Assembly (NCBI RefSeq): GCF_024105635.1
Contig: NZ_WYDQ01000002.1
Coordinates: 1 to 64,000 of the forward strand
Direction of reading: 5' to 3'
DNA from: Oceanicola sp. 502str15
GTDB lineage: Bacteria > Pseudomonadota > Alphaproteobacteria > Rhodobacterales > Rhodobacteraceae
DNA length: 64,000 nt
In this document: positions 3,378 through 16,359 of the stretch, piece by piece
How positions within the stretch are numbered: position 1 is the stretch's first letter
Layout of the letters: the number at the start of each line of letters is the position of its first letter
Translations under genes and position numbers: made by a program
The notes under the pieces: model-generated
What the model saw: only the letters and a program-made list of their open reading frames with translations
The model's database searches: none
What the model was told of the DNA's origin: nothing

Positions 3378-4679
3378 TCAGTGACTGAGGCCCGGATCAC
3401 GGTCGATGTCCCGATCAATCTCGCGATCCTTCTCGACCTCCTGATCCTTTTCCTGCTCCGGCTCGTCCTCGATCTCCAGCTTCTCGCGCGGCTTGTTCAG
3501 CACGTCCTTTAGGCGCTCGTTCACTGATGGTTTGCGTTCCTCGGGGCCAGCCTCCTGGCCAAGCTCAGGATCGCTATGACCATCCAGCTTGTGAACCGCT
3601 GCTTGCCCGTCGCGCCCGGCATCCTTCTCCATGATCTCCTTCAACCGCTTCTGCGCATATGTTAGGCGTTCAGGCTTCGGCGTGTCGTCCTGGTCTTCTG
3701 ACCGCCCGACGACCCGCGCCAGACGTTCTTTCATATCCTCCGGTCCGGCCCGTGCGCCGCGCTCCTTCGCCGCCGCCGCCCTGAGCGCAGCCAGACCGGC
3801 CGAGACACGCCCCTGCCCCGCGTCCCGCTCGGCCCCGTAGGCCTCCCGCGCGATGTCCAGCCGCGCGCGCAGCTCGCGGAACGCGGCACGGGCCTGACGC
3901 GCAGCATGGACGACAGCGCCACGTTCGGTGACCGGGACATATTCCCGGCCCTGGCGCTCGGCCATCGCCTTCGCCCGACGCTCCATGGAATTGGCCGCTG
4001 GCCCCAGCTTCAGCTCCGGGTCACGGTCCAGCTCCTCGGCCGACAGCGTGTCACCCCGCTTCAGCGCTGCCTCTCGCTGCGCTTCGAGCGACCGGTGATC
4101 GACGCGCTCGACCTCCCCTGCCCGCTCCAGGGCGCGGTTCTGTAGATCGGCCCAGAATCCGCGCATCTGCTCGATCTCGACGCTGCCGGTCTTCGCGGAA
4201 TCGAGCACGCGCGTCTTGGCGGTGAACCCCTCCGGTTCCAGCTTGCGGGTGGAGGTCAGAACGTGCGCATGGTGGTTGCGCTGATCGCCCTCGCGGTGCG
4301 GCGCGTGGATCGCCACATCGACGGCCACGCCGTAGCGGCTGACCAGCTCCTGCGCGAAGTCGCGGGTGATCTGCGAGCGGTCCTCGGCGCTGATCTCGGA
4401 CGGGAGCGCCAGCTCCCATTCGCGGGCGGTGACAGAGTTGCGGCGGGTCTCGGAAGCCTCGACCTCGTTCCAGAGGCGGGAGCGGTCCGTGGCCCAATCC
4501 GGGGCATCCTTCGGGGTCAGGATGAAGGTCTCCTCGATGCCCTGCTTGCGGGTGTAATCGTGGATACGGCCTTCACGCTGGCACTCGATGCGCTCCCCGA
4601 CACGGTAGGCGGCGGCCGCCGTGGCGGAGCGCCCGGCGCTGCGTTTGATCGTCTTCACGGAGAGGTGGTAGCTGGCCAT
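3378..4679 (-). CDS. mobA: MobA/MobL-family conjugative relaxase
   Basis: MobQ-type relaxase that would nick oriT and pilot single-stranded DNA during mobilization. The start is at 4679 because the protein then begins MASYHLSVKTIKRSAGRSA, the characteristic MobA N-terminus with its early catalytic-Tyr region. The metal-binding three-histidine motif HREGDQRNHHAHV is at residues about 128–140. It is 433 aa, and the C-terminal third is highly charged (a Glu/Asp/Arg-rich tail with DREIDRDIDRD), with no primase domain. An IncQ-like nick sequence lies about 160 bases upstream. No coupling protein or type IV secretion genes are present, so this is mobilization rather than self-transfer within the window. 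Confidence 0.9.
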   Translation of the reverse strand: MASYHLSVKTIKRSAGRSATAAAAYRVGERIECQREGRIHDYTRKQGIEETFILTPKDAPDWATDRSRLWNEVEASETRRNSVTAREWELALPSEISAEDRSQITRDFAQELVSRYGVAVDVAIHAPHREGDQRNHHAHVLTSTRKLEPEGFTAKTRVLDSAKTGSVEIEQMRGFWADLQNRALERAGEVERVDHRSLEAQREAALKRGDTLSAEELDRDPELKLGPAANSMERRAKAMAERQGREYVPVTERGAVVHAARQARAAFRELRARLDIAREAYGAERDAGQGRVSAGLAALRAAAAKERGARAGPEDMKERLARVVGRSEDQDDTPKPERLTYAQKRLKEIMEKDAGRDGQAAVHKLDGHSDPELGQEAGPEERKPSVNERLKDVLNKPREKLEIEDEPEQEKDQEVEKDREIDRDIDRDPGLSH

Positions 4680-4819
4680 CCACCTATCCTCGTCCGTGAC
4701 GCAGACGATCCCGACGCGCGCCGCTGCTGACCCCGGCCCATGCCCCGCCATAGACCACCGGGTCAGCCGTCTTTTCAGCGGTCGAGCTTCTGGGTCAATT
4801 CGGGCAAATCTCGACACCG

Positions 4820-4870: not shown

Positions 4871-4971
4871 CAGCGATAGGGCGCCCCATCATCGTTACCG
4901 CCGAAGCGGTTGATTTTGGAGCGCTGAACCGCCTGTGTTGAACTGGCTGAACCCCAACATTGGAGTTCAGC

Positions 4972-5910
4972 ATGCCCCACCTCGATCACAGAGCCTTCGT
5001 CAACGACTGCCGCGATGAGCGCGGTGTCGGACATCACACGCTTCGGGCCTATGCCCAAGATCTGCGAACGTTTGCCCGCTTCACCGAGGCCCACCGTCTC
5101 AGCGACCCGCTGTCGAAAGACGACATCCTCGCCTACCACCGCCACCTGCGCGACGCGTTGGGTGCCAAGCCGGCGACCATCGAGCGGCGACTCGTGACCC
5201 TCAAGTCATACTTCGCCTGGCGCGAAGATCGGAACAGCGCCCTGCCCTCCCCATTTGCCGATGTCCGTATCTCCGTACGGATCCCGCGCCGCCTGCCGCG
5301 CCCCATCGACCGAGACACCCTCAGAGCAGTTCTCCACGAGGGTGAAGACACATTCGCTGTGCGGTCAAAATCGGGCGCAGACGACGCTATTGCAGCCTCG
5401 CAAAACGATGTCACGATCCTGATCATCAAGCTGCTCATCGTGACCGGCCTCCGGATCAGCGAGCTGACCAATGTAAAGGTCCGCGACGTCTCGCATGACG
5501 GAAGCCAAATTCTCGTGAATGGCAAGGGAAACAGGGAGCGCATCGTCTTCGTGCCGAACCACAAGTTACAGGAAGAGCTCAGGCACTTCCTCGAGGCTCG
5601 CTATGCGCAGAGTGGTTCTTCCGCACCTTTGTTTCTGAACACGGGAGGTCGCCGGCTCCGCTCGGCCACGTTCCGCAAGCGGCTGCGGGCGCTATCCAGG
5701 CGCCTCGGGATCGAGCCGCACCTGACCCCACACCGGTTCCGGCACTCAGCCGCAACGCTGCTGATCGAGGAAGGTATCGATATCCGGATGGTCCAGGCCT
5801 TGCTCGGGCACGCCAGCCTCAGGACCACCGAGATCTATGTGAGGGTTTCGAACCATGCGCTACGACGAGCGTTGGAGCGAGCGGATATTCTGGATGTCCT
5901 CAGAAACTAG
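4972..5910 (+). CDS. Tyrosine recombinase (XerC/D-like integrase)
   Basis: Site-specific DNA recombinase of 312 aa. It has an N-terminal SAM-like core-binding domain (RAYAQDLRTF) and a catalytic domain with Arg in TGLRISEL, the HxxR box in HRFRHSAA, and the nucleophilic Tyr in HASLRTTEIYVRV. The ATG at 4972 is chosen because GGAG lies at 4962–4965 with good spacing; an in-frame TTG at 4960 is an alternative. It stands at the left edge of the PurZ-like nucleotide cassette and may have mobilized it, but no flanking direct repeats could be identified by eye. Confidence 0.88.
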   Translation: MPHLDHRAFVNDCRDERGVGHHTLRAYAQDLRTFARFTEAHRLSDPLSKDDILAYHRHLRDALGAKPATIERRLVTLKSYFAWREDRNSALPSPFADVRISVRIPRRLPRPIDRDTLRAVLHEGEDTFAVRSKSGADDAIAASQNDVTILIIKLLIVTGLRISELTNVKVRDVSHDGSQILVNGKGNRERIVFVPNHKLQEELRHFLEARYAQSGSSAPLFLNTGGRRLRSATFRKRLRALSRRLGIEPHLTPHRFRHSAATLLIEEGIDIRMVQALLGHASLRTTEIYVRVSNHALRRALERADILDVLRN

Positions 5911-6128
5911 GGGCGGAGAACCGACTATTGCTCCGCTTCAATCAAACGACCGGAATGGGGCCGATCGGAAGCAAAAGAAGACGTTGACGGAGCACGGTTT
6001 CCGACGCACCTGAGCGAGACTATCCGGATGTTTGCGACGTTGCCGACGAACCTCTGGTCAGCAATATGCCGCGCGATCTAAGAAAACGGTCGTTGCTTCA
6101 CCGGTGACAATACGCAAAGGGGGAACTG
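5911..6128. other. Intergenic region before the ATP-grasp gene
   Basis: This 218-base stretch has no convincing gene. A short in-frame run near 5970–6012 (KKTLTEHGFRRT then stop) resembles the active-site region of P4-type integrases and could be debris of a second integrase, but it is too short to prove. It presumably carries the promoter of the gene at 6129, whose ATG has a GGGGGAA ribosome-binding site. Confidence 0.35.
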
Positions 6129-7499
6129 ATGCATCACAAAGACATGATTCTCGATCAGTTGGCCACGCGAGGCAACGTCGCTCAGTTTGTGGGGTTCCGC
6201 CCAGACGGCGGCGAGCCCAAGCAGAGCTACTCCCGCATTCGCGGACACGAGCCGAACGAACGGTTCCTCAGTACACTCGAGGCACTGGAGACCCTGCTCG
6301 CCTCGAGCGCCGATAGAATGATAAACATCCGCAGCTACCTGCCCAGCGATCCTCGTAGCCGAGAGTTCGTATACGGCCTGACCGACGCCAGCGAGGCGCT
6401 GGCGACACTACTCCGACTGACGGGTGAGGGACTGCATACAATCGCTAACGAGACCGTCGACATCTCCGACGGAGGTGTCTCCGGCGTTTTACAAGGGAGG
6501 ATCCTCGAGTTCGCTCCCGACGACACACCCCGCTGCGTGGAGAAGCCGGGAGTTGCCTCTATGTCCTTCGAACTCGGGATGAGCCTGCTCGAGGCGGTCT
6601 ACGGGTTCCGGCCGGACATCGAGGCCGTCGCGGGCGAGAGAACCGAATTCAGCATCCACCCGCGTCCTCGCGGGTGGAAAGGAAGTCACACTTTGTTGTG
6701 GGAGCATGAGAACGCTCCGGATCAGGAAGTAAGTGCTGAACCGCGCTGGCCCAACCGCTTCAGTCGGCACATCGGGGACAAGGCGTTCGGGCTGCTCGTC
6801 GCTTCGCTCACCGGCGCGCCCGTCCCTGAAACGCTCGTGATCTCGAGGAAGGTCGCGCCGTTCCGCTTCGGGAAGCCCACCGGCGACTGCGAGATATGGA
6901 CGCGGACCTGCCCCACCGAGCAGCAGCCCGGCCTTTTCACGACTGTGAAGGGCTGGACCGATCCCTACGCCCTCCTCGCGCTCGAGGATCCCGACGGTGA
7001 TCGCATAGCCTCGGTGATCGTACAGAGCGCCATCCGTGCGGCCCACTCGGGAGCCGCGATCACATCGGCCGGCGGCGACATCGTAATTGAAGGCGTAAAC
7101 GGAGAGGGAGACCGATTCATGCTCGGCGAGAGGGCTGGCGGATCGCTTCCTGAAGCCGTGCTGCGGGACGTGAAGGCGCTGAACCGAAGGCTGCGGAGTG
7201 CGCTTGGACCGGTTAGGTTCGAATGGGTACACGACGGTGCCCGCGCCTGGTGCGTGCAACTTCACGTGGGCACAAGCGTCAGCGACGGAGATGTCCTCGT
7301 CCCGGGAGACGTACTCGACTGGACGGAGTTCGACGCCAGCAACGGGCTCTCAGCCTTGCGTGAACTGATTGCTCGCATGGGCGACGGTCAGGGCATTTTG
7401 GTGAAGGGCGACGTAGGACTCACAAGCCACGTCGCAGATCTTCTGCGAAAGGCAGGGATCGCATCCAGGATTTCGCGAAAGGCTGCGTTCACCCGGTGA
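6129..7499 (+). CDS. PEP-synthase-like ATP-grasp protein of a nucleotide cassette
   Basis: 456-aa cytoplasmic protein resembling the ATP-grasp (PEP/pyruvate-binding) half of PEP synthase/PPDK. An N-terminal region (about 65–140) has NIRSYLPSDPRSREFVYGL and DGGVSGV…DTPRCVEKPG. The ATP-grasp part begins near residue 213 (RHIGDKAFGL…GAPVPETLVIS), passes through a phosphate-loop-like HSGAAIT and ends near FEWVHDG, like the FEW(a)xDG strand of PEP synthases. The swivelling phospho-His and PEP-binding domains of full-length enzymes are absent, so it may phosphorylate or ligate another substrate. It is convergent with the DarT-like gene and lies next to a PurZ-like fusion and an HD hydrolase. The exact reaction is unknown. 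Confidence 0.6.
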   Translation: MHHKDMILDQLATRGNVAQFVGFRPDGGEPKQSYSRIRGHEPNERFLSTLEALETLLASSADRMINIRSYLPSDPRSREFVYGLTDASEALATLLRLTGEGLHTIANETVDISDGGVSGVLQGRILEFAPDDTPRCVEKPGVASMSFELGMSLLEAVYGFRPDIEAVAGERTEFSIHPRPRGWKGSHTLLWEHENAPDQEVSAEPRWPNRFSRHIGDKAFGLLVASLTGAPVPETLVISRKVAPFRFGKPTGDCEIWTRTCPTEQQPGLFTTVKGWTDPYALLALEDPDGDRIASVIVQSAIRAAHSGAAITSAGGDIVIEGVNGEGDRFMLGERAGGSLPEAVLRDVKALNRRLRSALGPVRFEWVHDGARAWCVQLHVGTSVSDGDVLVPGDVLDWTEFDASNGLSALRELIARMGDGQGILVKGDVGLTSHVADLLRKAGIASRISRKAAFTR

Positions 7500-7516
7500 C
7501 CGCTTGCGCTCGCGCC

Positions 7517-8212
7517 TTATGGATGATCCGCTTCCGTAGCTTCCGGCGAGCGCCAGAGCTCTTCGAGAATCTCGCCGGCCCGCATGCGGTGCACGCCCAA
7601 AACATAGTCGGCGATGTTCGGAACCGAGTGGTCCACGAGTAGTTCGACGACATTATTCGACGGCTTCCTCTTTGCTTTCTCCCGCTCATCGAAAGGGAAG
7701 TCCGGGATGCGTTTGAAAGTGTCAGGACCCCGTGGCTGCGGGACGTACAGCGTCGCGCCACTATTCAGGGGGCTCAACCAAATGTCGTTCTCGTGCGCTG
7801 CGACCAGCGATGCCGTTCTTAGCGTGATGACGGTCTGCGGCTCGTTCCTGTACGCGCGCGCTTTGGTCAGACCGCGTACGCGTTCCGCCGCGAGCCAGAA
7901 GAACGTCCGTCCGTTCAGCAGACGGTACCAATCCGCCGGCGTCATGTCACCCTGCAGGCACTTGAGGAGAGCCTTGTCCGTCATGGGTTTCTGATCACGG
8001 ACGACCGCGCCAGGAAGACCGGGCGCGGCCAGAGCCTGGTTGGCGGGCCGACGAGTTCCGAGCAGCCGATCACGGTCTGCCGCATCAACGCCATAGGTTT
8101 CGACGAGCGCCTGAGCGCTCATAAGGCCATGGTCCCGGATCGCCGGCCAGGCGCCATCGTGCGCCATGTGCCAGAGGCGCGGGTAGGTTTCAACAAGCTG
8201 CTCGGTCCTCAC
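7517..8212 (-). CDS. DUF7002/DarT-like protein (possible ADP-ribosyltransferase fold)
   Basis: 231-aa soluble protein. The opening (YPRLWHMAHDGAWPAIRDHG) has the 'histidine, then xxIxxHGL' pattern of DUF7002 and of DarT/DUF4433-type proteins, where this His begins the NAD-binding site of an ADP-ribosyltransferase fold. The later LNGRTFFWLAAERVRG and RNEPQTVITLRTASLV would supply the second and third strands. Family assignment is from pattern recognition only; catalytic activity is inferred. Its ATG overlaps the end of the kinase–PurZ-like gene (ATGA, 8209–8212), so the two are translationally coupled. In this setting it could act as the effector of a defence or toxin module. Confidence 0.5.
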   Translation of the reverse strand: MRTEQLVETYPRLWHMAHDGAWPAIRDHGLMSAQALVETYGVDAADRDRLLGTRRPANQALAAPGLPGAVVRDQKPMTDKALLKCLQGDMTPADWYRLLNGRTFFWLAAERVRGLTKARAYRNEPQTVITLRTASLVAAHENDIWLSPLNSGATLYVPQPRGPDTFKRIPDFPFDEREKAKRKPSNNVVELLVDHSVPNIADYVLGVHRMRAGEILEELWRSPEATEADHP

Positions 8213-9807
8213 GACCAGTCACCGCGCTCAAGCACACCATCCTTCGCGAACGCCTTCGAGACAAGCGTCACGGGAACGCCGGAGACGCGCTCAATCTTAC
8301 GAATGAACTCTTGGGTCTCGGTCGTGAGCGTGCCGAAGGAGGTAGCGTCGCGGTTGGCGATGTCGATGTAGTCGGCGAAGGTGAGGGCTATGCAGGTGGC
8401 TCCGTTAAGTTCCGCCTCGCGGCGCAGTCGACCCCAGTCGAACTCTGCAATCCGGCGTTCACGGTTGGACACGGTTCCACGCTCAGTTCGAGCGATCTCG
8501 TCGACGGGCACTCCGCTGCGCTCCGAGACCGTAGCGAAGTCGATCACACGACCCATTGGTCCCGAAGTGCCCCCGACACGAATGGGATAGGTGCGAAGGA
8601 CCATAATCACTTCGCGGACCGCGCCAGGAGCAATTCCGGCATCAGAGATACAACCGGAACTGGTGGTCTCGCGGGAAGTTACGTAAGGGTAGCGACCGTG
8701 GTGGATGGAAAGCTCCGTGCCTTGGGTGCCCTCAAGCAATACCGATTTGCCCTCTCGGAGTAGCCGATCGACCACCGTGCGCGCCGGGCGCACGAACTGC
8801 GCGAGTTGTCCAACGTCCCGCGCAAGCTTCACCGATGGGCCGAACAGGGGCTTGCCTCGGTTCAGAATTTTCCGCGCCGCGGCAGCGCCCACCCCTTGTT
8901 TAGTGGACGCAATCGCGTCCAGGGCATCGCCTTCACCTCGGCCCTCTTCGATCCGGCGATCTTCATCGTCAATCACCATCACCTGCGGATCGATCGTAAG
9001 CCGATTGGCCGTCAGCTTGTGATCCATGATCTCAAGCATGAGCTGTGGCAGCGAAATCGTGGACCCGGCGGCGAGAATGATCTGCGCCTCCTCGTTCGAC
9101 ATCGAACCCGACGGCAGCTGCACATACTTGTAGATGGGATCTGCAACGCGATGACCCGCATTGGGACCGCCGATGCGCACCAGGCCATCGTATCGCGAGG
9201 CGATTTTCGCGCAGACGTTGCCCTTGCCCTCACTGCCGTACTGCGCGCCCACGATCACGTCGACGGCAGGACGGGTTTCCTGAAGCCTTCCCACAAACGC
9301 CATGGTCGCTACAGCTAGATCATACGGATCCGTGTCCTCAGTGTCGAACACGAGGTCGGCGATTTCGGCGAGAGTACCCACCTGCTGCTCGGTTCCATGC
9401 GCCGCGGCCTCCGCATAGGTCGCGTATTCACGCGTAGCGGTGGGGCGGGAAACGTAGCGCTTCTCCAGCACGTCCGGCGATGCCTCGAGATGAACGTGAA
9501 CCACCTTTCCGGGAAAGTGCTCGCGCAATCCTTCCACCTGCGGGGCGATCCGGGCGGAGTCGAGAAGAAGCAGCTCTGTGCCTGCCGTGTCAGCTCCGAC
9601 CACGGCATCGACAACCCAGAGGCCCCCGGTCTCCTCGTCCAGCGCGCTTCCGGCGGCTTGAAGTTCGGCGCGACCCTCGCCGCAGCCCTTGCGTTCGCGA
9701 ATGTATGACCGGGTGCTCACCGGGCGCGCGCCATACGTGGCGAGTGCCTCGGCGAAACGGGTTTTGCCCGAGCCAATTGGCCCCGACATCACGAACAATA
9801 TTTCCAT
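8209..9807 (-). CDS. P-loop kinase fused to PurZ-like adenylosuccinate synthetase
   Basis: 532-aa fusion. Residues 1–~175 form a P-loop kinase (Walker A GPIGSGKT at 9–16; FPGKVVHVHLEASP), like (deoxy)nucleotide kinases. Residues ~183–532 are an adenylosuccinate synthetase of the short archaeal/phage length (about 350 aa versus about 430 for housekeeping PurA). The P-loop is GAQYGSEGKG, so the catalytic Asp of PurA (GDEGKG) is Ser192. The same Asp-to-Ser change characterises phage PurZ, which uses dGMP in 2-aminoadenine synthesis. NAGH (216–219), TQGTELSIHHGRYP and TSSGCISDAG are conserved. Substrate dGMP/GMP rather than IMP is an inference. It is coupled to the DarT-like gene and divergent from the HD hydrolase gene. 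Confidence 0.8.
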   Translation of the reverse strand: MEILFVMSGPIGSGKTRFAEALATYGARPVSTRSYIRERKGCGEGRAELQAAGSALDEETGGLWVVDAVVGADTAGTELLLLDSARIAPQVEGLREHFPGKVVHVHLEASPDVLEKRYVSRPTATREYATYAEAAAHGTEQQVGTLAEIADLVFDTEDTDPYDLAVATMAFVGRLQETRPAVDVIVGAQYGSEGKGNVCAKIASRYDGLVRIGGPNAGHRVADPIYKYVQLPSGSMSNEEAQIILAAGSTISLPQLMLEIMDHKLTANRLTIDPQVMVIDDEDRRIEEGRGEGDALDAIASTKQGVGAAAARKILNRGKPLFGPSVKLARDVGQLAQFVRPARTVVDRLLREGKSVLLEGTQGTELSIHHGRYPYVTSRETTSSGCISDAGIAPGAVREVIMVLRTYPIRVGGTSGPMGRVIDFATVSERSGVPVDEIARTERGTVSNRERRIAEFDWGRLRREAELNGATCIALTFADYIDIANRDATSFGTLTTETQEFIRKIERVSGVPVTLVSKAFAKDGVLERGDWS

Positions 9808-9919
9808 GCGAAGCTGCTCCCTGTTACCCTCTGCTTAGTCCCCATCTACGCGACGAACGACCGGTTGCGGTCCAACCTTATTTCTGGCAAGCGCATCGCA
9901 AAAGGACAATCCACTGACG

Positions 9920-10480
9920 ATGAACATCTTCGCCCCGAACCTTGCGATCCACCATGCTAAGGGTCCGACTATCATGCTGGCCAGTGGGAGGCGCTTCGAC
10001 CTGCTCGACCCGTCGTCGAGCACATTTGGCATAGACGACATTGCCCACGGGCTCGCTAACGTCTGCCGATACGCCGGCCAGTGCCGCGGGTTCTATTCCG
10101 TGGCCGAACACTCCCTTCTGGTCAGCCAGACGGTGAGCCGATACGCCTTTGAGGCGCTCCTCCACGACTCAGCTGAAGCGTTCATCGGCGACATCACCAG
10201 ACCGCTCAAGAAGCTGCTTCCCGACTACCGCGAAATCGAGGAGCGGATCGAGGACGCGGTGGCCGAGCGCTTCGGTCTAGACCGTGCGGCCAAGGCGACG
10301 ATCAAAGAGGCTGACCTGCGTGTCCTCGCGGCCGAGCAACAGCAAGTCATGGCACTGGGCTGCGCAGACTGGTCGAGCGAGGCGGGAATTCTACCGGCAC
10401 CGGTCACTGTGCGCGGTCTTTCCCCGAACGATGCAAGAGCCGCCTTTCTGCGACGCTACGAGGAGCTCCGCCCTATATGA
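9920..10480 (+). CDS. HD-domain (deoxy)nucleotide phosphohydrolase, YfbR/DatZ-like
   Basis: 186-aa metal-dependent HD phosphohydrolase. The metal-binding set is visible as His64 (VAEHSLLV), His82–Asp83 (LLHDSAEAFIGD) with Glu86 and Asp91, and a later Asp in IKEADLRVL. The size and the block HDSAEAFIGDITRPLK match the YfbR 5'-deoxynucleotidase group, which also includes phage DatZ dATPases. It is transcribed divergently from the kinase–PurZ-like fusion with only 112 bases between them, so a shared regulatory region is likely. In Z-genome phages PurZ is paired with a DatZ-type HD enzyme, so the neighbourhood supports a nucleotide-pool role. Substrate preference cannot be read here. Confidence 0.75.
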   Translation: MNIFAPNLAIHHAKGPTIMLASGRRFDLLDPSSSTFGIDDIAHGLANVCRYAGQCRGFYSVAEHSLLVSQTVSRYAFEALLHDSAEAFIGDITRPLKKLLPDYREIEERIEDAVAERFGLDRAAKATIKEADLRVLAAEQQQVMALGCADWSSEAGILPAPVTVRGLSPNDARAAFLRRYEELRPI

Positions 10481-10554
10481 AGACGGGATAGGGGACGGTG
10501 AATAGCCCCGTGTATCGTGGACGCCTTCTTCGCGAACTTTGAGGCAAGGAGGCC

Positions 10555-10775
10555 ATGATGAGCAGCAAGAAGCTCAGCGATGAGTTCTAGCGGGACGCGG
10601 TCGCGCGGATCACCAAGCGGGGCAGCCCGGTCAGGGAAGTGTCGGAGCGCTTAGGGGTCAGCGCGTATTCGCTCTATGCCCGGAAGAAGAAGTTCGCAAA
10701 GGCGTCATCGGGAGAGGCGGAGAAGGACGCCGAGATCCGGCGTCTGAAGAAGGAACAGGCGCGGGTCTCGGGCCC
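10555..10775 (+). pseudogene. IS3-family OrfA remnant
   Basis: Reading from ATG 10555 gives MMSSKKLSDEF, then a stop (TAG 10588–10590), then RDAVARITKRGSPVREVSERLGVSAYSLYARKKKF in the same frame. This is the helix-turn-helix N-terminus of IS3-family OrfA followed by a leucine-zipper-like segment. The sequence then switches abruptly to unrelated coding debris at about 10776, and no OrfB is present. It is a dead, truncated insertion-sequence gene. Confidence 0.75.
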
Positions 10776-10970
10776 GAGGGCGACGACATCGCTGCGGTGC
10801 TGCAGGAGTTCTACCCGGACGTGCCGGTGGCCTAGGCCCTGCTAGGCCAGCGAAAGGCGTTCATTCAGGCGCTGATTTCGGGCCAGGCAATCACCGAGTT
10901 CGACCGGCCGAGTTCGAAGGCAGTCACAGAGATCAAGGCGCTGTTTCGGGAGGTCTGGAGCAGGCTGTGA
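10776..10970 (+). pseudogene. ParA-like partition protein 3' remnant
   Basis: In frame from 10776 the sequence encodes EGDDIAAVLQEFYPDVPVA, a stop (TAG 10833–10835), then ALLGQRKAFIQALISGQAI and a C-terminus EIKALFREVWSRL. This pattern (an acceptance loop, QR.AF..AL..G..V.E, EI..L..EV) resembles the C-terminal tail of plasmid ParA-family ATPases. No Walker motifs remain. It abuts the OrfA remnant, so this junction marks old insertion and deletion events at the right edge of the PurZ-like cassette. Confidence 0.5.
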
Positions 10971-11040
10971 ATCCAGGCATTCATAGCTACCGCTATATCA
11001 TTTATCGAGAAGTCGCTGAGGAACAGAAAGTCATAGTTAC

Positions 11041-11853
11041 GTGGGAATTGTAGTTACCGAGAGGACCGAAGAAGGCGAAGATACCGTTCTCGATGTCAGC
11101 ATCGACCTGAGGCACAATGACGGGGTGGATATGTCCCTATCCGGGAATCCGACCGTAATGGCTGTCGACGACCTGCAGGTCTTTTCTCTTTTTCGGAGAC
11201 GCCGACTCTCAACCACCGAAGCGGATGGGAACCCCCTGATCTATGCCCTCAAGGACCTGAAGGGATATGCGATTGATGAAGCTGGCAAGGGACTCATGTG
11301 GGAGACGGCTGGCGAAATCTTCCGAGCTTGGACATGTCCGTGGAAGCCAACCCGCATCGCCGCCATCCCTTCCAGGCATTCTGTGAGCGTCGACCTGGCC
11401 TCCAGGATCGCAGCCTTTCTGGAGGTGGAACACGTCCCGGTGCCCTTGGTCCACAAGAGAACCGTCGCTGAGGTTCTGGAGGAAGCCGAGCCCCTGAAGG
11501 ACAGCAGTGCCGTGCCAGAGAGCGACCTAAAGGCCTTCAAGAGCCAGCTCGGCCGCCTCTCGACAGCGCCGCCGGGGAAGACCTTCCAGATGAAGGAGAT
11601 CGATGTGCGTGTCAGGCAATACTTCCATCCATGGCGGGTGTCTGAGGAGGCCAAGGACTTCATCGGCCACGATCTTCTTCTGGTCGACGATCTCATCGGG
11701 AGTGGTGCTTCGCTCTCGACTTGTGCCAAGTGCCTGGTTGAGAACGGGCACTCTGTAGTCGGCGGGATGAGCTTGTTCAGCCCTCTTGACCGGGAACTTG
11801 CCAAGAAGCCGAAAGGAGCGCGCCGCAAGAGGCGCAGAGGTCGAAAACCTTGA
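11041..11853 (+). CDS. Phosphoribosyltransferase-like protein
   Basis: 270-aa protein with the PRPP-binding signature LLLVDDLIGSGASL near residue 222, the hallmark of type I phosphoribosyltransferases and of regulatory PRTase-fold proteins. The preceding region has a KxxR/YFHPW segment and no recognisable partner domain; the C-terminus is strongly basic (RRKRRRGRKP). The annotated start is GTG 11041. Just upstream, a different frame (10967–11053, 28 codons from a GTG that overlaps the ParA remnant's stop) encodes HSYRYIIYREVAEEQKVIV, which looks like coding sequence, so the true N-terminus may have been lost by a frameshift near 11045. The function is unknown. Confidence 0.55.
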   Translation: MGIVVTERTEEGEDTVLDVSIDLRHNDGVDMSLSGNPTVMAVDDLQVFSLFRRRRLSTTEADGNPLIYALKDLKGYAIDEAGKGLMWETAGEIFRAWTCPWKPTRIAAIPSRHSVSVDLASRIAAFLEVEHVPVPLVHKRTVAEVLEEAEPLKDSSAVPESDLKAFKSQLGRLSTAPPGKTFQMKEIDVRVRQYFHPWRVSEEAKDFIGHDLLLVDDLIGSGASLSTCAKCLVENGHSVVGGMSLFSPLDRELAKKPKGARRKRRRGRKP

Positions 11854-12036
11854 CTTGAAGTGGCCCTTTTGCTAACTACCTGTCAATCACAGACCGCACA
11901 TACGCCCTGCGGTCTCTAAAGATAAAGCTTGGAGTGCTTTAGGGCACGTCAAGTGGGTCCGAGCCGCGCCGTTGAACGAGGCCTCCCGGTAAGCGGGGAT
12001 ATCGTTCTTCCCAGGGATCGGCGGGAAAAATACGGA

Positions 12037-12067
12037 AGCGGGGAGATGAGACAATCATCTCCCCGCT
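12037..12067 (+). terminator. Rho-independent terminator
   Basis: A perfect 13-bp hairpin (12037–12049 with 12055–12067, arm AGCGGGGAGATGA, loop GACAA) is followed by TTTT on the plus strand; on the minus strand the stem is followed by a TATTTTT run a few bases later. It lies between the converging PRTase-like gene and the ImmA/IrrE operon and can serve both. Confidence 0.85.
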
Positions 12068-12097
12068 TTTGCGTTAGGGGGTTGGCAGCTGCCAACT

Positions 12098-12886
12098 TCA
12101 TCGCGCCATCATGTATTCGCTCTTCAGGACCAGCAAGGTCATGACCTCATCGTCACCCACACGGAACGATTGCTCAGCAAGCTCATAGCGATCGGCGCCC
12201 TCTGTGTCGAACCAGGTGTCTGCGTCCATAAGAGACAGCGAGATGTCGTCCCGGGCTCCCTTGTGCAGGATATCGTGAGCGTTGCTCTGGGGGTCGAGTG
12301 TTCGACGCAGAAACCATCGCTCCCCGACGCTCTTCGATCTCTTGAACCAGTTGAGGCCGCCGCGGCTGTAGGAGGCCAGGAGACTCGGCTCGAAATCCAG
12401 ATCCACCAAGCGATACGCCATGGCCGTCTTGCTGACAGAAAAGGTGTCCGAAAGAAGCCGGACGGTGCGCATGTCGAATTTCCTGAAGTCATTCAGTGCG
12501 CTCTTGAGCATGAACTCCGGCATCAACAGCTCTGAGGCGAACCGGTTGGCGCCCTTCTCACGGGATAATCCTCGTTCGCGCCCCTTGCTACCCCCGATAT
12601 CCTCTTTGGCACAAAACAGATGTTCTCCCCTGTGCCATTCCCAGTGCCCCAGTTCGTGTGCGAGGGAGAACCTCTGGCGCCGTAGATTTCCATGCGCGTC
12701 ATTCACGGCGATTATCGCGCGGCCGACGTCGGCTCGACCATGGATGCACGCCTCACATCCGTCCATTTCCCGGTAGTCGACCTTGGCACCTTGAAGCCAG
12801 GCAATGGCTTCAAGGTTGATGTCTTCCGGTCGCTTCAGGCGCAAGGCCTGGAGGATCTCCTCAGCACGACGCGGAGAATGGGTCAT
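12098..12886 (-). CDS. ImmA/IrrE-family metallopeptidase
   Basis: 262-aa zinc-protease-like protein with the HExxH motif in SLAHELGHWEWHRGEH, the signature of ImmA/IrrE (DUF955). Such proteins cleave or antagonise repressors of mobile elements or stress genes. The ATG at 12886 is chosen because it overlaps the stop of the upstream gene (ATGA); a start at 12913 would overlap further. The protein contains several Cys/His residues (DGCEACIHGR) but no DNA-binding domain. It is the last gene of a three-gene leftward operon with a small acidic protein and a sigma-like factor, suggesting regulated proteolysis of that factor. Confidence 0.8.
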   Translation of the reverse strand: MTHSPRRAEEILQALRLKRPEDINLEAIAWLQGAKVDYREMDGCEACIHGRADVGRAIIAVNDAHGNLRRQRFSLAHELGHWEWHRGEHLFCAKEDIGGSKGRERGLSREKGANRFASELLMPEFMLKSALNDFRKFDMRTVRLLSDTFSVSKTAMAYRLVDLDFEPSLLASYSRGGLNWFKRSKSVGERWFLRRTLDPQSNAHDILHKGARDDISLSLMDADTWFDTEGADRYELAEQSFRVGDDEVMTLLVLKSEYMMAR

Positions 12887-13296
12887 TCGTCTTCGCCCTT
12901 TTTGTCGGGCCAAGCGTCATCGTCGAACAGGTCTTCCAGGTCCTTCTCGATGCCTTTTCTGTCTCTCTCGGACAGCTTCTTTCCATGGCGCGCGGCCACG
13001 GTGTCCGGCATGAAGCTGTCGGGGCGGCTCCCTGGCCTACGCTGGGGCATGGAAACAACATTCTGTTCGCGCGTCGCACGATCCTTCTCAGCCGCAGCCT
13101 TGGCTTCCTTCATTGCCATTTCGGCGACCTCGTCTTTCGCGGTCTCCAGCCAAGCCCTCATGCGATCACCGAAAGCAGCAATGTCCTCTCCGGCCTCATC
13201 AGCCTCTTTCCGAACATCCTCGTCGGAACCATTCGTGATAGCTTCGTCGATTTCCTCCGCCAGGCGATCTTGAAAAGTCTTCTTATCCTTCGCCAT
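12883..13296 (-). CDS. Hypothetical acidic helical protein
   Basis: 137-aa protein, rich in Glu, Asp, Lys and Ala, predicted mostly helical (EAMKEAKAAAEKDRATRE), with an acidic C-terminus (DDDAWPDKKGEDE). No family is recognised. Its start overlaps the end of the sigma-like gene by 14 bases and its stop overlaps the start of the ImmA/IrrE gene, so the three are translationally coupled. A small acidic partner between a sigma-like factor and a protease could be an anti-factor or adaptor; this is inference from position only. Confidence 0.6.
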   Translation of the reverse strand: MAKDKKTFQDRLAEEIDEAITNGSDEDVRKEADEAGEDIAAFGDRMRAWLETAKDEVAEMAMKEAKAAAEKDRATREQNVVSMPQRRPGSRPDSFMPDTVAARHGKKLSERDRKGIEKDLEDLFDDDAWPDKKGEDE

Positions 13297-13861
13297 CGAG
13301 CATCTCTTTCATTTCCGGGTGGGCGTTGCGTGTCCTTTTGACCCGCTGCACCACCGTGTTGTATTCCCTTTCATTCCAGTCGAGGTCCGTCATGATCTCG
13401 GACTTCGATTGCCCTTCCTCCAGAGCCAGGAGGTATAGCTGTGCATCGTCATCACCCTCGAAGAGCGCCATGAAGCGGGCCATGAACTCTTTCTCGAAGA
13501 GCTGCCCTTCCTGGTTGCACGACGAGGCGATGTCCTTCGCGGCCTCCATGTCCTTGTCGGTGTTCTTGCGAAACCCGATCCGGGGGCGCTCCGATGCAAT
13601 GCTCCTCATCACACCGGAGAGAAAGTCGATAAGAGCAACGCCTTTGGGCCATTGGCGCGTCCCGGTGATCTCGCTCTTCATCACCCTCATGACGGCCTCT
13701 TGAAGGACCTCCTCCTCGTCGCCGGCCCGGTTGTTCCGGATGCACCAGTTCCGCGCCTTCTGAAGGAGCTTCCTGAGTGCGACATCATCGCGGAAGAGAA
13801 GGTCCAGTTCGTCAGTGAACTCCTTGAGAGTATGGAACTCCTGGGGTGTGTCTTTCGCCAT
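13283..13861 (-). CDS. Sigma-70-like / DNA-binding helical protein
   Basis: 192-aa protein whose organisation resembles RNA polymerase sigma-70-like factors. The region-2-like part has ARNWCIRNNRAGDEEEVLQEAVMRVMKS, and the region-4-like end (LYLLALEEGQSKSEIMTDLDWNEREYNTVVQRVKRTRN) looks like a helix-turn-helix with a recognition helix. It is the first gene of the operon containing the ImmA/IrrE protease and is divergent from the ubiquitin-like operon across 175 bases, so it may regulate one or both. It could also be a phage-type regulator rather than a true sigma factor. Confidence 0.6.
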   Translation of the reverse strand: MAKDTPQEFHTLKEFTDELDLLFRDDVALRKLLQKARNWCIRNNRAGDEEEVLQEAVMRVMKSEITGTRQWPKGVALIDFLSGVMRSIASERPRIGFRKNTDKDMEAAKDIASSCNQEGQLFEKEFMARFMALFEGDDDAQLYLLALEEGQSKSEIMTDLDWNEREYNTVVQRVKRTRNAHPEMKEMLDGEG

Positions 13862-14036
13862 GCCAATCGCCGTATTCGCTGCTCTTCAAATGTATATGCG
13901 CACGCAGCGAGCTACCGCGGTCAAGAAAATCCGAAAAAAAATGTGAAGGCTGCGAACGCGAACCCTCTTGTGCCGCGCATGCACCTTTGAAGGCGCCTGC
14001 TGCGGGCGTCGAGCAGGCAATAAGAGGATCACTGCC

Positions 14037-14576
14037 ATGACTACCGAACCGATCGAAATCGAAGATCTCCTGGCCGCCCTGAAGGCCGGCCGCAAGCCCC
14101 GCGACCACGGTCCCTACAAGGTCCAGGTCGGCGACCACGACCTCCAGTTCACCGACGCCGTCATCGACGATCCGACGCCCACCGGCCGCCAGATCATCGA
14201 GGGGGCCGGCTTCCGCAAGGCCGAGGAACACCTCGTGTTCCAGTCGCTGCGCAATGGTGAACTCGAGGAACTTCGCCTCGAGGAAACCACGGACCTGCGC
14301 CCCGGCCAGGTCGAGCGCTTCCTGGTGTTCCCGAGCGCGGAATCCTTCCGCTTCGACATCGATGGCAAGCGCCTCGAGTGGGGCCACAAGGTCATCAGCG
14401 GGCGCGTGCTCAAGAAGCTGGCCGGGGTCGATCCCGCCAAGTTCGCCGTCTGGCAGGTGATCCCCGGCAAGGATGACATCCTGGTCGGCGACACCGATCT
14501 GATCTGCCTCGCGGATGCTGGCCTGGAGCACTTCTTCACCGGCGTGCCACAGACCACGGAAGGGGGTGCGGCATGA
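14037..14576 (+). CDS. Multi-ubiquitin-like (MUB) β-grasp protein
   Basis: 179-aa protein with two tandem β-grasp-like repeats (about residues 25–95, YKVQVGDHDLQFTD…VFQSLRNGELEEL, and 98–170, FRFDIDGKRLEWG…VWQVIPGKDDILV), matching the bacterial multi-ubiquitin family that accompanies E1/E2/JAB genes. The C-terminus is EGGAA: a Gly-Gly followed by two Ala, which a JAB peptidase could trim to expose GG for adenylation. The start at 14037 follows an AGAGGA ribosome-binding site; the longer frame upstream is Cys-rich and lacks one. ATGA overlap with the E2 gene shows tight coupling. Cytoplasmic modifier; target unknown. Confidence 0.8.
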   Translation: MTTEPIEIEDLLAALKAGRKPRDHGPYKVQVGDHDLQFTDAVIDDPTPTGRQIIEGAGFRKAEEHLVFQSLRNGELEELRLEETTDLRPGQVERFLVFPSAESFRFDIDGKRLEWGHKVISGRVLKKLAGVDPAKFAVWQVIPGKDDILVGDTDLICLADAGLEHFFTGVPQTTEGGAA

Positions 14577-14953
14577 GCCTCCTCCCCCGTCAGGATCGCC
14601 GCTACCTCGAGGGTCGCGGCATCACCGTTCGCGAGGTCATCGAAGGCGGAAAGAAGGGCGTGATCCTCACCGGGATCACGCTGCCGGAAGGCAAGTATCA
14701 GGTCGCCCGGGCGGATATCCTGATCCTGCTGCCGCCCTCTTATCCCGAGGTCGCCCCCGACATGTTCTACGCCGTGCCGCATCTGAAGCTCCTTGCCGGC
14801 CAGCGTGAGCCCCGCTGCACGCAGGCACGCCAGGCCTTTGATGGCCAGAACTGGCAGCGCTGGTCTCGCCATAACAACCAGTGGCGTCCCGGCACGGATG
14901 GCATCTGGACCATGCTGAAGCGGGTCGAAGAGGCCCTGGAGGTGGCGGCATGA
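14573..14953 (+). CDS. Prokaryotic E2-like conjugating protein (E2 family E type)
   Basis: 126-aa compact E2/UBC-fold protein. The visible landmarks are the Pro-rich ILLPPSYPEVAPDMFY, the E2 'YP…P' strand-loop, a single cysteine (Cys82, in REPRCTQAR) at the expected catalytic position, and a conserved-looking C-terminal block WQRWSRHNNQWRPGTDGI. The HPN motif of eukaryotic E2s is absent. This pattern agrees with the prokaryotic E2 family found beside multi-ubiquitin and JAB–E1 genes. It would accept the modifier from the E1 as a thioester on Cys82 (inference). It overlaps both neighbours by ATGA junctions. Confidence 0.75.
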   Translation: MSLLPRQDRRYLEGRGITVREVIEGGKKGVILTGITLPEGKYQVARADILILLPPSYPEVAPDMFYAVPHLKLLAGQREPRCTQARQAFDGQNWQRWSRHNNQWRPGTDGIWTMLKRVEEALEVAA

Positions 14954-16359
14954 AGCGCAGCGACATCACCCTCCACGCCCGTCATCGCGACAAGCTGCAG
15001 GCGCTGCTCGCGCACCCCCGTGGGCACGAGGGCGCCGCCTACATGTTGCTCGGCAAAAGCGAGATCGCGCAGGACCCCTGGGACCTCGAGCCGCGGACCC
15101 GTTACACCTCCTACGAGGTCATCGCGATCCCGCAGGAGGACCGCGTCGATGCCAGCGACAAGCACGTCACCTGGAATACCAACTCCTTCGCCCAGCTCTG
15201 TCGCCGGGCCAAGGAGGAAGGCTTGGTGCCGGCGATCGTTCATAGTCACCCGGGAGGCTTCGACGGTTTCTCGGACCAGGACGATCGCAACGAGCGCGAC
15301 CTCTTCACCATGGCCCGGAACCGTAACGGCGAGGGGACGCGCCTGGTGAGCGTCGTGCAGGTCGGTGACAGCCTCTACCGGGCACGGATCTGGGAAGACG
15401 ACATGACACCCCTGCCCTGTCACCGCGTGACCGTCATCGGCACTCGGCTCGAGATCCAGTCGACCGACGTACCGACCCCGTCGGAAGCCTTGGCCCGGCA
15501 GGCACTGGCCTTCGGGCCGGAGGTCAACGGCCTCCTCAAGCAGCTCTCCGTTGCCGTGGTCGGCTGCGGCGGCACCGGCAGCCCGGTGGTCCAGCTCCTC
15601 GCCCGCCTCGGCGTGGGGCGCATCGTGGTCATCGACGATGACGTGGTCGAGCATTCCAACCTGAACCGCCTGTATGGCGCGACCCGGAAGGATGCTGACA
15701 ACGCGGTGCCCAAGGTCGACGTCATGGCGCGCGAGGTGACGATGATGGGCCTCGACGTCGACATCCGGTCGATGAACGGCTGGGTGGATGCGCCGCATAT
15801 CCGTGACGCGCTGAAATCCTGCGACGTCATCTTCGGATGCACGGACGATCACGCCGGGCGCCTCTACCTGAACCGCGTGGCGCACTTCTACCTGATCCCG
15901 GTCATCGATGTCGGGCTGGTCCTCATGCCCCGTGACGATGGTGAGCCCGGCCTCCTCGAGATGGCCGCGCGGGTCAGCGTGCTGTTTCCCACGTCGGCGT
16001 GCCACGGCTGCCGCGGCACAGTCGATCGCGTCAGGGCTCGCGAGGAGGACCTCCAGCGATCGGACCCCGCCGAATATGAACGGCAGAAGACCGAGGCCTA
16101 TGTTCGCGGCGCTGGTAATCCCGCGCCGGCCGTCGTGACCTTCACCTCCGAGGCCGCCACCATGGCAGTGAACGAACTTCTTGCCGGTCTCGTCGACTTC
16201 CGCGGCGGCGGCGGATGGACATGGCAACGCTATCGCAAGCTCGACAAAGGCTTCGAGCGTTCGCAGGCGGCGCAGCCCCGGTCCGACTGCCCGGTCTGCG
16301 GCAGCGAGGAATACTGGGGCCTCGGCGACATCGAGCCGTTCCTGGATCGCATCGGGTGA
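14950..16359 (+). CDS. JAB deubiquitinase–E1 (ThiF) fusion protein
   Basis: 469-aa two-domain protein. Residues ~1–160 form a JAB/JAMM zinc isopeptidase with Glu27 and the complete signature HSHPGGFDGFSDQD (His98, His100, Ser108, Asp111). Residues ~185–469 form a ThiF/E1 adenylation domain with GCGGTGS at 205–211, the acidic VVIDDD strand, NLNR (237–240) and a following Lys255. Two cysteine pairs (CHGC and CPVC) could bind zinc as in ThiF/MoeB, and one of these Cys might be the E1 thioester residue. The fusion would both process and activate the modifier encoded two genes upstream. It is the core of the ubiquitin-like operon. Confidence 0.9.
   Translation: MKRSDITLHARHRDKLQALLAHPRGHEGAAYMLLGKSEIAQDPWDLEPRTRYTSYEVIAIPQEDRVDASDKHVTWNTNSFAQLCRRAKEEGLVPAIVHSHPGGFDGFSDQDDRNERDLFTMARNRNGEGTRLVSVVQVGDSLYRARIWEDDMTPLPCHRVTVIGTRLEIQSTDVPTPSEALARQALAFGPEVNGLLKQLSVAVVGCGGTGSPVVQLLARLGVGRIVVIDDDVVEHSNLNRLYGATRKDADNAVPKVDVMAREVTMMGLDVDIRSMNGWVDAPHIRDALKSCDVIFGCTDDHAGRLYLNRVAHFYLIPVIDVGLVLMPRDDGEPGLLEMAARVSVLFPTSACHGCRGTVDRVRAREEDLQRSDPAEYERQKTEAYVRGAGNPAPAVVTFTSEAATMAVNELLAGLVDFRGGGGWTWQRYRKLDKGFERSQAAQPRSDCPVCGSEEYWGLGDIEPFLDRIG

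Follow-up and report, generated by a model that had tools for sequence, protein, structure and literature searches.

The first 64 kb of the 202,880-bp second contig of Oceanicola sp. 502str15 (the window) carry a cassette of four genes. It raises the question of what a bacterial cell does with a relative of the enzymes that make 2-aminoadenine (Z) nucleotides for phages, when this relative is fused to a nucleotide kinase and encoded beside a predicted ADP-ribosyltransferase. The fusion is here named KPZ, its partner belongs to the family DUF7002, and the remaining genes encode a 456-aa (amino acid) ATP-grasp protein and an HD hydrolase (Table 1). The accessible part of a 2026 survey describes the synthesis of 2-aminoadenine nucleotides for phages and counts 147 phage sequences and four archaeal relatives in its PurZ group, with no mention there of bacterial kinase fusions (PMC12884076). 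Gene content, conserved pairing, residues, tree and predicted folds, all of which are direct observations, reveal a PurZ subfamily that is found repeatedly in cellular genomes, with up to 413 related loci, and whose near-constant partner in the 80 loci examined is a predicted ADP-ribosyltransferase. KPZ is probably a cellular enzyme that makes 2-aminoadenine (deoxy)nucleotides, and this is the firmest inference of the present study.

Relatives of KPZ were sought in 84,980 species genomes (one genome per species) with a 24-row alignment as query; locus searches with a single window protein as query found nothing, unlike those with the alignment. The scan yielded 413 stretches encoding a KPZ relative, of which the best 80 by query alignment were kept for the neighbourhood counts, so that these counts apply to the nearest relatives and not to a random sample. 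Additionally, a sample of 398 genomes from the same phylum as the window was used.

A PurZ-type synthetase fused to a kinase

The C-terminal domain of KPZ is a member of PF00709 and reads GSEGKG at residues 191-196, where PurA has GDEGKG. The motif with Ser is found in the window protein and in 79 of the 80 relatives (L110 is without it in the open reading frame (ORF) taken), and GDEGKG is found in 35 of 36 PurA rows, the last row being unmatched by the pattern. KPZ stays under the purA cut-offs (182.4 vs 395.55 bits for TIGR00184, 246.8 vs 368 bits for NF003295) and has Ser at Asp13, the residue of the purA criterion. With the substrate contacts of S-2L PurZ, as given in the accessible part of PMC8342488, as reference, S23, N49, A50, T132, Q190, T205, R240, V241 and R280 are kept in the window protein. 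At the column equated by motif scan with the arginine of E. coli PurA that contacts the ribose 2'-OH, Arg is present in 13 of 13 matched PurA rows, and the 45 matched KPZ rows have K 17, N 11, R 8, T 4, S 3 and V 2 times, a pattern that would agree with a deoxyribonucleotide or relaxed substrate and is no proof of it. In 78 of the 80 relatives a relaxed pattern finds a Walker A motif ahead of the synthetase domain (54 by the strict P-loop pattern), and the kinase profile matches the AdkA-like structures 3lw7/3h0k over its length (E 3e-10) as well as adenylate kinases.

The preliminary description of this DNA had left the synthetase to be placed among PurA, archaeal PurZ0 and phage PurZ. In a tree of 79 rows from a careful IQ-TREE run, a branch with support 100/100 separates 18 PurA rows from the rest, and a group of 59 rows (100/99) comprises KPZ together with PurZ, PurZ0 and viral rows, so that the domain groups with PurZ, outside ordinary PurA. 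Within this group all but one of the rows labelled KPZ (37 of 38) form one clade at 100/100; just outside the group stand an archaeal PurA (5k7x, taken from a PDB alignment), on the PurZ side, and a Rhizobium plasmid protein. L008 was rejected as KPZ, having no fused kinase and lying outside the KPZ clade; it pairs with a PurZ-like protein from Sinorhizobium medicae plasmid pMl2 (L244, 4995-7057), which has GSEGKG and no kinase and whose gene overlaps an unnamed 340-aa gene by one base. On Rhizobium leguminosarum plasmid p3 (L243, 4393-10647), genes annotated as FolE, PurB, QueE, IMP dehydrogenase, nitrile-hydratase alpha subunit and QueC stand with one for a short PurA-like enzyme retaining Asp13, and this cluster looks like one for the synthesis of a 6-amino 7-deazapurine.

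Membership in PF00709 and the annotation of KPZ relatives in public plasmids as 'adenylosuccinate synthetase' would fit ordinary purine salvage by a diverged paralogue of PurA. This explanation is disfavoured and very improbable, given Ser in place of Asp13, the position in the PurZ group and the fact that ordinary enzymes are retained: the window genome has its own PurA (589.7 bits) and PurB (493 bits), and full PurA is kept in all but one of 12 other KPZ genomes tested, the exception being a Synergistaceae assembly that shows KPZ only. The sparse distribution, with full-length KPZ in 4 of the 398 same-phylum genomes, also speaks against it. DUF7002 exceeds its cut-off in 5 of these 398 genomes, and 3 have both.

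Independent support for KPZ making a Z nucleotide comes from pathway partners nearby. In the actinobacterial loci L070, L086, L092 and L106 an adenylosuccinate lyase (PurB) gene, scoring 348-368 bits against an NCBIfam cut-off of 326, is located at a distance of 1.1-2.4 kb from KPZ, and a second PurB over the cut-off is encoded elsewhere in all four genomes. A MazG-type gene is present in L075, L086, L092 and L106, and the two tested against Pfam match PRA-PH (PF01503, E 6-7e-18). The earlier remark that MazZ is missing is thus right for the window and not for the family, MazG-like and PurB genes standing beside KPZ in some actinobacteria. In the Bradyrhizobium loci L061, L062 and L064 an E. 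coli-type PurB is encoded within ~6 kb of KPZ, which may be coincidence. Moreover, KPZ is encoded in eight virus-labelled records, completely in seven of them and in one (L125/L136) in two pieces at the ends of its contig; three of the eight have a nucleoside 2-deoxyribosyltransferase match, each at most 3 kb from KPZ, which in two records is apparently fused to a MazG-like domain. DmtZ, the nucleoside 2-deoxyribosyltransferase of Z-phages, forms the deoxynucleoside monophosphate dZMP according to the accessible part of PMC12884076.

The same records bear on a role in DNA modification, in which KPZ would supply dZTP for host, plasmid or invading DNA and DUF7002 would mark or attack DNA according to its Z content. 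The kinship of KPZ with the synthetases of Z-phages and the deoxyribosyltransferase genes agree with this, as do DNA_pol_A matches in three of the eight virus-labelled records (two over cut-off). The DatZ profile has no match in the eight records. Beside cellular cassettes DNA_pol_A is not among the 25 commonest Pfam families of 110 flank proteins (from 65 loci, a random part of 391 eligible proteins), though Y-family polymerase domains are seen in 2 among the matches listed, and no other polymerase search was made there; this role appears improbable.

Variants of the fusion were also seen. A second, free-standing kinase-like ORF directly precedes KPZ in L036 (6991-9241) and L122 (9986-12221), two KPZ copies lie close together in opposite orientation in L113 (Gagatemarchaeum, 9989-15363), and Pseudomonas sp. 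TH43 (G406) has two copies in one genome.

The DUF7002 protein and its pairing with KPZ

The predicted structure of the window DUF7002 protein has a DarT/ADP-ribosyltransferase fold with the catalytic Glu present and is nearest to DarT1. PF22531 is its sole Pfam match at E<=1, the DarT family PF14487 giving none, and a profile-profile comparison with ten DarT proteins gave E 0.001 and a probability of 20%. The protein is predicted, with high likelihood, to be an ADP-ribosyltransferase. The family is wider than the cassette: in genomes of the window's genus, L293 (6258-6899) and L294 (~6523-7110) have chromosomal genes for divergent DUF7002 proteins with no KPZ nearby, and at the standalone loci of two same-genus genomes ORFs and tblastn with the window proteins revealed DUF7002 only.

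DUF7002 is present in 79 of the 80 KPZ loci, the exception, L104, ending 44 bases after KPZ. The 80 loci include Pseudomonadota, Acidobacteriota, Actinomycetota, Verrucomicrobiota, Planctomycetota, Myxococcota, Chloroflexota and Bacteroidota as well as two archaeal records. The two genes lie on the same strand in 78 loci, with 57 pairs overlapping, 18 separated by at most 30 bp and 2 by at most 150 bp; due to the fact that ORFs were begun at the first possible start codon, overlaps are overcounted and 'overlap or <=30 bp' is the safer figure. In L065 the genes are 2.8 kb apart on the same strand, in L092 DUF7002 is on the strand opposite KPZ, and in one 752-aa protein (P0089) both are fused. 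The distances within the two families correlate (r 0.57, n=76, 0/2000 permutations); 76 of the 80 loci were entered, leaving out one without DUF7002, two whose DUF7002 is without the trimming motif and one with a short KPZ ORF.

An alternative partner, an IrrE-peptidase/macrodomain protein, is encoded in 43 of the 80 loci and never together with the ATP-grasp gene, and 7 loci have neither. In a slightly wider locus set it is on the KPZ strand in 43 of 45 members, typically just upstream. Its N-terminal half matches the metallopeptidases IrrE (3dte, E 5e-12) and CapP (7t5t, E 2e-10). Its C-terminal half matches macrodomains (2afc/2fg1, E 3-4e-46; 5e3b, 5e-45, which we take to be SCO6735, an ALC1/TARG1-type macrodomain), with weaker matches to human C6orf130 (TARG1, 7e-12) and DarTG (7omu, 2e-4). 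By Pfam alone, all four members tested show the peptidase and one of them the macrodomain, under cut-off.

These observations bear on a DarTG-like toxin-antitoxin module, in which DUF7002 would be a toxin whose target is DNA, RNA or nucleotides. KPZ, together with either the HD and ATP-grasp pair or the IrrE-macrodomain protein, would neutralise it or repair its damage, with no nucleotide signal involved. A 4-bp overlap and tight gene pairing, as in the window, are typical of such modules, the DUF7002 fold matches DarT1, and the macrodomain is the antitoxin domain of DarG. However, a mere binding antitoxin would need neither the Walker A motif and most synthetase active-site residues, which are kept, nor the PurB and MazG partners recruited in some loci, and in 30 of the 80 loci the ATP-grasp gene replaces the macrodomain protein. 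We regard such a module as rather unlikely.

Accessory genes, replicon and defence context

The ATP-grasp gene is present in 30 of the 80 loci, all Alphaproteobacteria, and the HD gene in 28, always with the ATP-grasp gene. The N-terminal ~205 aa of the ATP-grasp protein are without a clear match, and a profile search of the PDB with this protein gave chance-level matches only. The HD protein matches phrog_318 (deoxynucleoside monophosphate phosphatase) with E 7e-66 vs E 1.9e-6 for the DatZ family phrog_7076, and in the PDB it matches 2gz4 (Atu1052, E 5e-26) and YfbR (E 0.01). In L060 (12732-15585) and L069 (5042-7833) two more genes common to both (clusters 33 and 34; ~460-510 aa) lie between the DUF7002 and ATP-grasp genes.

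The nearest relative of the cassette, in genome G131 (L034), has 80% DNA identity to it over 4546 columns of the conserved block, and this is the only blastn match at E<=1e-5 when the first 20 kb of the window are compared with 18 kb of G131. The integrase is therefore a neighbour and not a member of the cassette, and was dropped as part of a mobile unit. The preliminary description had seen four genes forming an integrase-bordered mobile cassette with a DatZ-like hydrolase. The four genes are confirmed, with all ORFs intact, and a neighbourhood search found them together in 28 of the 80 loci; the integrase lies outside the conserved unit, and the hydrolase is nearer to phrog_318 phosphatases than to DatZ. 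The ATP-grasp and DUF7002 genes are convergent with a gap of 17 bp. A pattern scan of the cassette for promoters and terminators gave nothing usable.

Table 1. Positions of the cassette and of neighbouring features in the window
Feature	Position	Strand	Remark
MobA/MobL relaxase	3378-4817		Pfam match
Integrase	4960-5910		left of the cassette, outside the conserved block
Limits of the conserved four-gene cassette	5962..10492		blastn block common to the window and genome G131 (L034)
456-aa ATP-grasp protein	6129..7499	+	~205-aa N-terminal part and ATP-grasp domain of PPDK/PEP-synthase/rifampin-phosphotransferase type
DUF7002 protein, predicted DarT-like ADP-ribosyltransferase	7517..8212	-	GTG start
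KPZ	8209..9807	-	N-terminal P-loop nucleotide kinase (~1-175) fused to PurZ-type synthetase (~181-532)
YfbR/Atu1052-like HD hydrolase, predicted deoxynucleotide phosphatase	9920..10480	+	divergent from KPZ

The relaxase gene on a contig of this size makes a plasmid replicon likely; the first contig of the genome has 4.24 Mb. To the right of the cassette and outside the conserved block, 12098-12913 is an IrrE/M78 peptidase gene at a distance of 1.6 kb, which is without a macrodomain match and probably a separate module. Between the two, 11041-11853 encodes a protein with a weak phosphoribosyltransferase match.

Eight plasmid records have a KPZ match covering at least 80%, and three neighbourhoods on Rhizobiaceae plasmids were read. 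One copy is beside a DUF87 ATPase with SIR2 (HerA-SIR2-like), an SbcCD-like pair and AbiEi/AbiEii, another is beside AbiEii-like, AAA-ATPase/UvrD (Gabija-like) and integrase genes, and the third has a UvrD helicase, a PD-(D/E)XK nuclease and genes for iron uptake in its vicinity. At E<=1e-15, 122 PADLOC families were matched in the 110 flank proteins vs 9 in 108 control proteins, which came from 20 hand-chosen windows in 10 of the same genomes and thus from fewer genomes than the test set; since the families overlap, their totals do not equal protein counts. Type I restriction and GajA lead in the flanks with 3 proteins each, and in the control mad3 has 3 proteins and other families 1 each. 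The only match of the cassette itself to PADLOC-DB 2.0.0 is TRIP13 (E 0.034) for KPZ, the other three proteins having none, and none of the four fits a described PADLOC system. A role of the cassette in defence or genetic conflict is rather likely; the anti-phage role proposed earlier draws on two observations, the sparse distribution and the defence-gene neighbours.

Kinases, phosphatases and ATP-grasp enzymes are common in nucleotide natural-product clusters. The cassette might accordingly yield an exported or stored compound, an ADP-ribosylated or 2-aminoadenine nucleoside, with no link to phage defence, and some flanks are indeed metabolic. This appears quite improbable, given the defence-rich flanks and the fact that only the five named families were seen in over 9 of 93 loci, most of the rarer families being unassigned.

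A proposed switch and its relation to known systems

A tentative proposal, built on sequence comparison, is that KPZ and DUF7002 form an anti-phage switch in which a Z nucleotide activates the ADP-ribosyltransferase or is modified by it. The PurZ domain would couple aspartate to (d)GMP, as Ser for Asp13, most pocket residues and the tree suggest, and (d)ZMP would be released by adenylosuccinate lyase, which the host supplies here and a dedicated gene in the four actinobacterial cassettes. The fused kinase would then phosphorylate (d)ZMP towards (d)ZTP. In the least certain step the rising Z nucleotide, for example after a flood of dGMP as a phage digests DNA, would gate or feed the DUF7002 transferase, which would block growth or phage replication. 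Finally, accessory enzymes might reset the switch, namely the HD nucleotidase and the ATP-grasp protein here and the IrrE-peptidase/macrodomain protein elsewhere. Sequence, fold and operon partners lend good support to the unusual purine nucleotide and the DarT-like effector of the preliminary description, whose interpretation is thus partly borne out.

Several observations count against the proposed switch. The window KPZ is without T53, R146, C204, T273 and Q308 of PurZ, of which T273 is retained in some other KPZ rows. Arg at R146, a phosphate contact across the dimer, is absent from 10 of 12 KPZ rows; R317, an Arg invariant in the 24-row alignment, is close by and may be its counterpart. 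KPZ scores 189 bits against the cut-off of 300 bits of the NCBIfam PurZ model NF038379, and its substrate may therefore be a different 6-oxopurine. Five of the eight virus-labelled KPZ loci are without DUF7002 in the stretch read, G289 of the 398-genome sample has KPZ alone, and the same-genus genomes G299 and G325 have DUF7002 without KPZ. The correlation of distances may reflect shared descent only, and the sole tie between the Z nucleotide and DUF7002 is genetic linkage; a direct coupling of the two proteins through a Z nucleotide has, in our estimate, somewhat less than an even chance.

In a variant to which we give a slim chance, KPZ and DUF7002 would together make an ADP-ribosylated 2-aminoadenine (deoxy)nucleotide messenger, which the IrrE-macrodomain protein would read via its macrodomain and answer via its protease, the HD and ATP-grasp proteins taking over breakdown and readout in Alphaproteobacteria. 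If true, nucleotide immune signalling would gain a third principle, next to those of cyclic oligonucleotides and of TIR-made ADP-ribose derivatives. If the switch exists as proposed, cells would turn the phages' own rare-base chemistry into an immune signal or weapon, and the role of cellular PurZ would become directly testable. The analysis also yields leads on the function of DUF7002 and of the 456-aa ATP-grasp protein, both from unnamed families.

Among the papers listed in one open-access library, which omits most subscription journals, no mention of DUF7002, no description of KPZ and no described system coupling Z-nucleotide synthesis to ADP-ribosylation was found. Like the phage PurZ/PurZ0 enzymes (phiVC8, S-2L, Ghobes), KPZ has Ser for Asp13, most base-pocket residues and a place in their superclade; unlike them it forms a separate clade, is kinase-fused, stays under the curated PurZ cut-off and occurs in cells, beside a gene for a predicted ADP-ribosyltransferase. 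With DarTG1/DarTG2 the cassette family has in common the DarT fold and, in the alternative partner, a TARG1/DarTG-related macrodomain. It differs in that PF14487 misses DUF7002, the constant partner is KPZ and the macrodomain is IrrE-fused or, as in the window, where the four cassette proteins have no macrodomain or NADAR Pfam match, absent. The alternative partner has an IrrE-type metallopeptidase like the CapP/IrrE protease regulators, but is macrodomain-fused, stands in an operon with KPZ and DUF7002 and is absent from the window's own cassette. By analogy, the nearest known principle to the proposed switch is Kongming, in which, according to the accessible part of PMC12948488, deoxyinosine triphosphate (dITP) is the messenger in anti-phage signalling. 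Kongming is defined by the adenosine deaminase KomA with KomB/KomC, and the Pfam matches of the four cassette proteins include no deaminase or Sir2 domain, Kom profiles not having been searched; the kinase of the cassette is built in and not taken from the phage as in Kongming, with signalling a proposal only. What Kongming would have in common with the switch is a non-canonical purine nucleotide produced via a deoxynucleoside monophosphate kinase and an effector that uses NAD+ (PMC12948488, accessible part).

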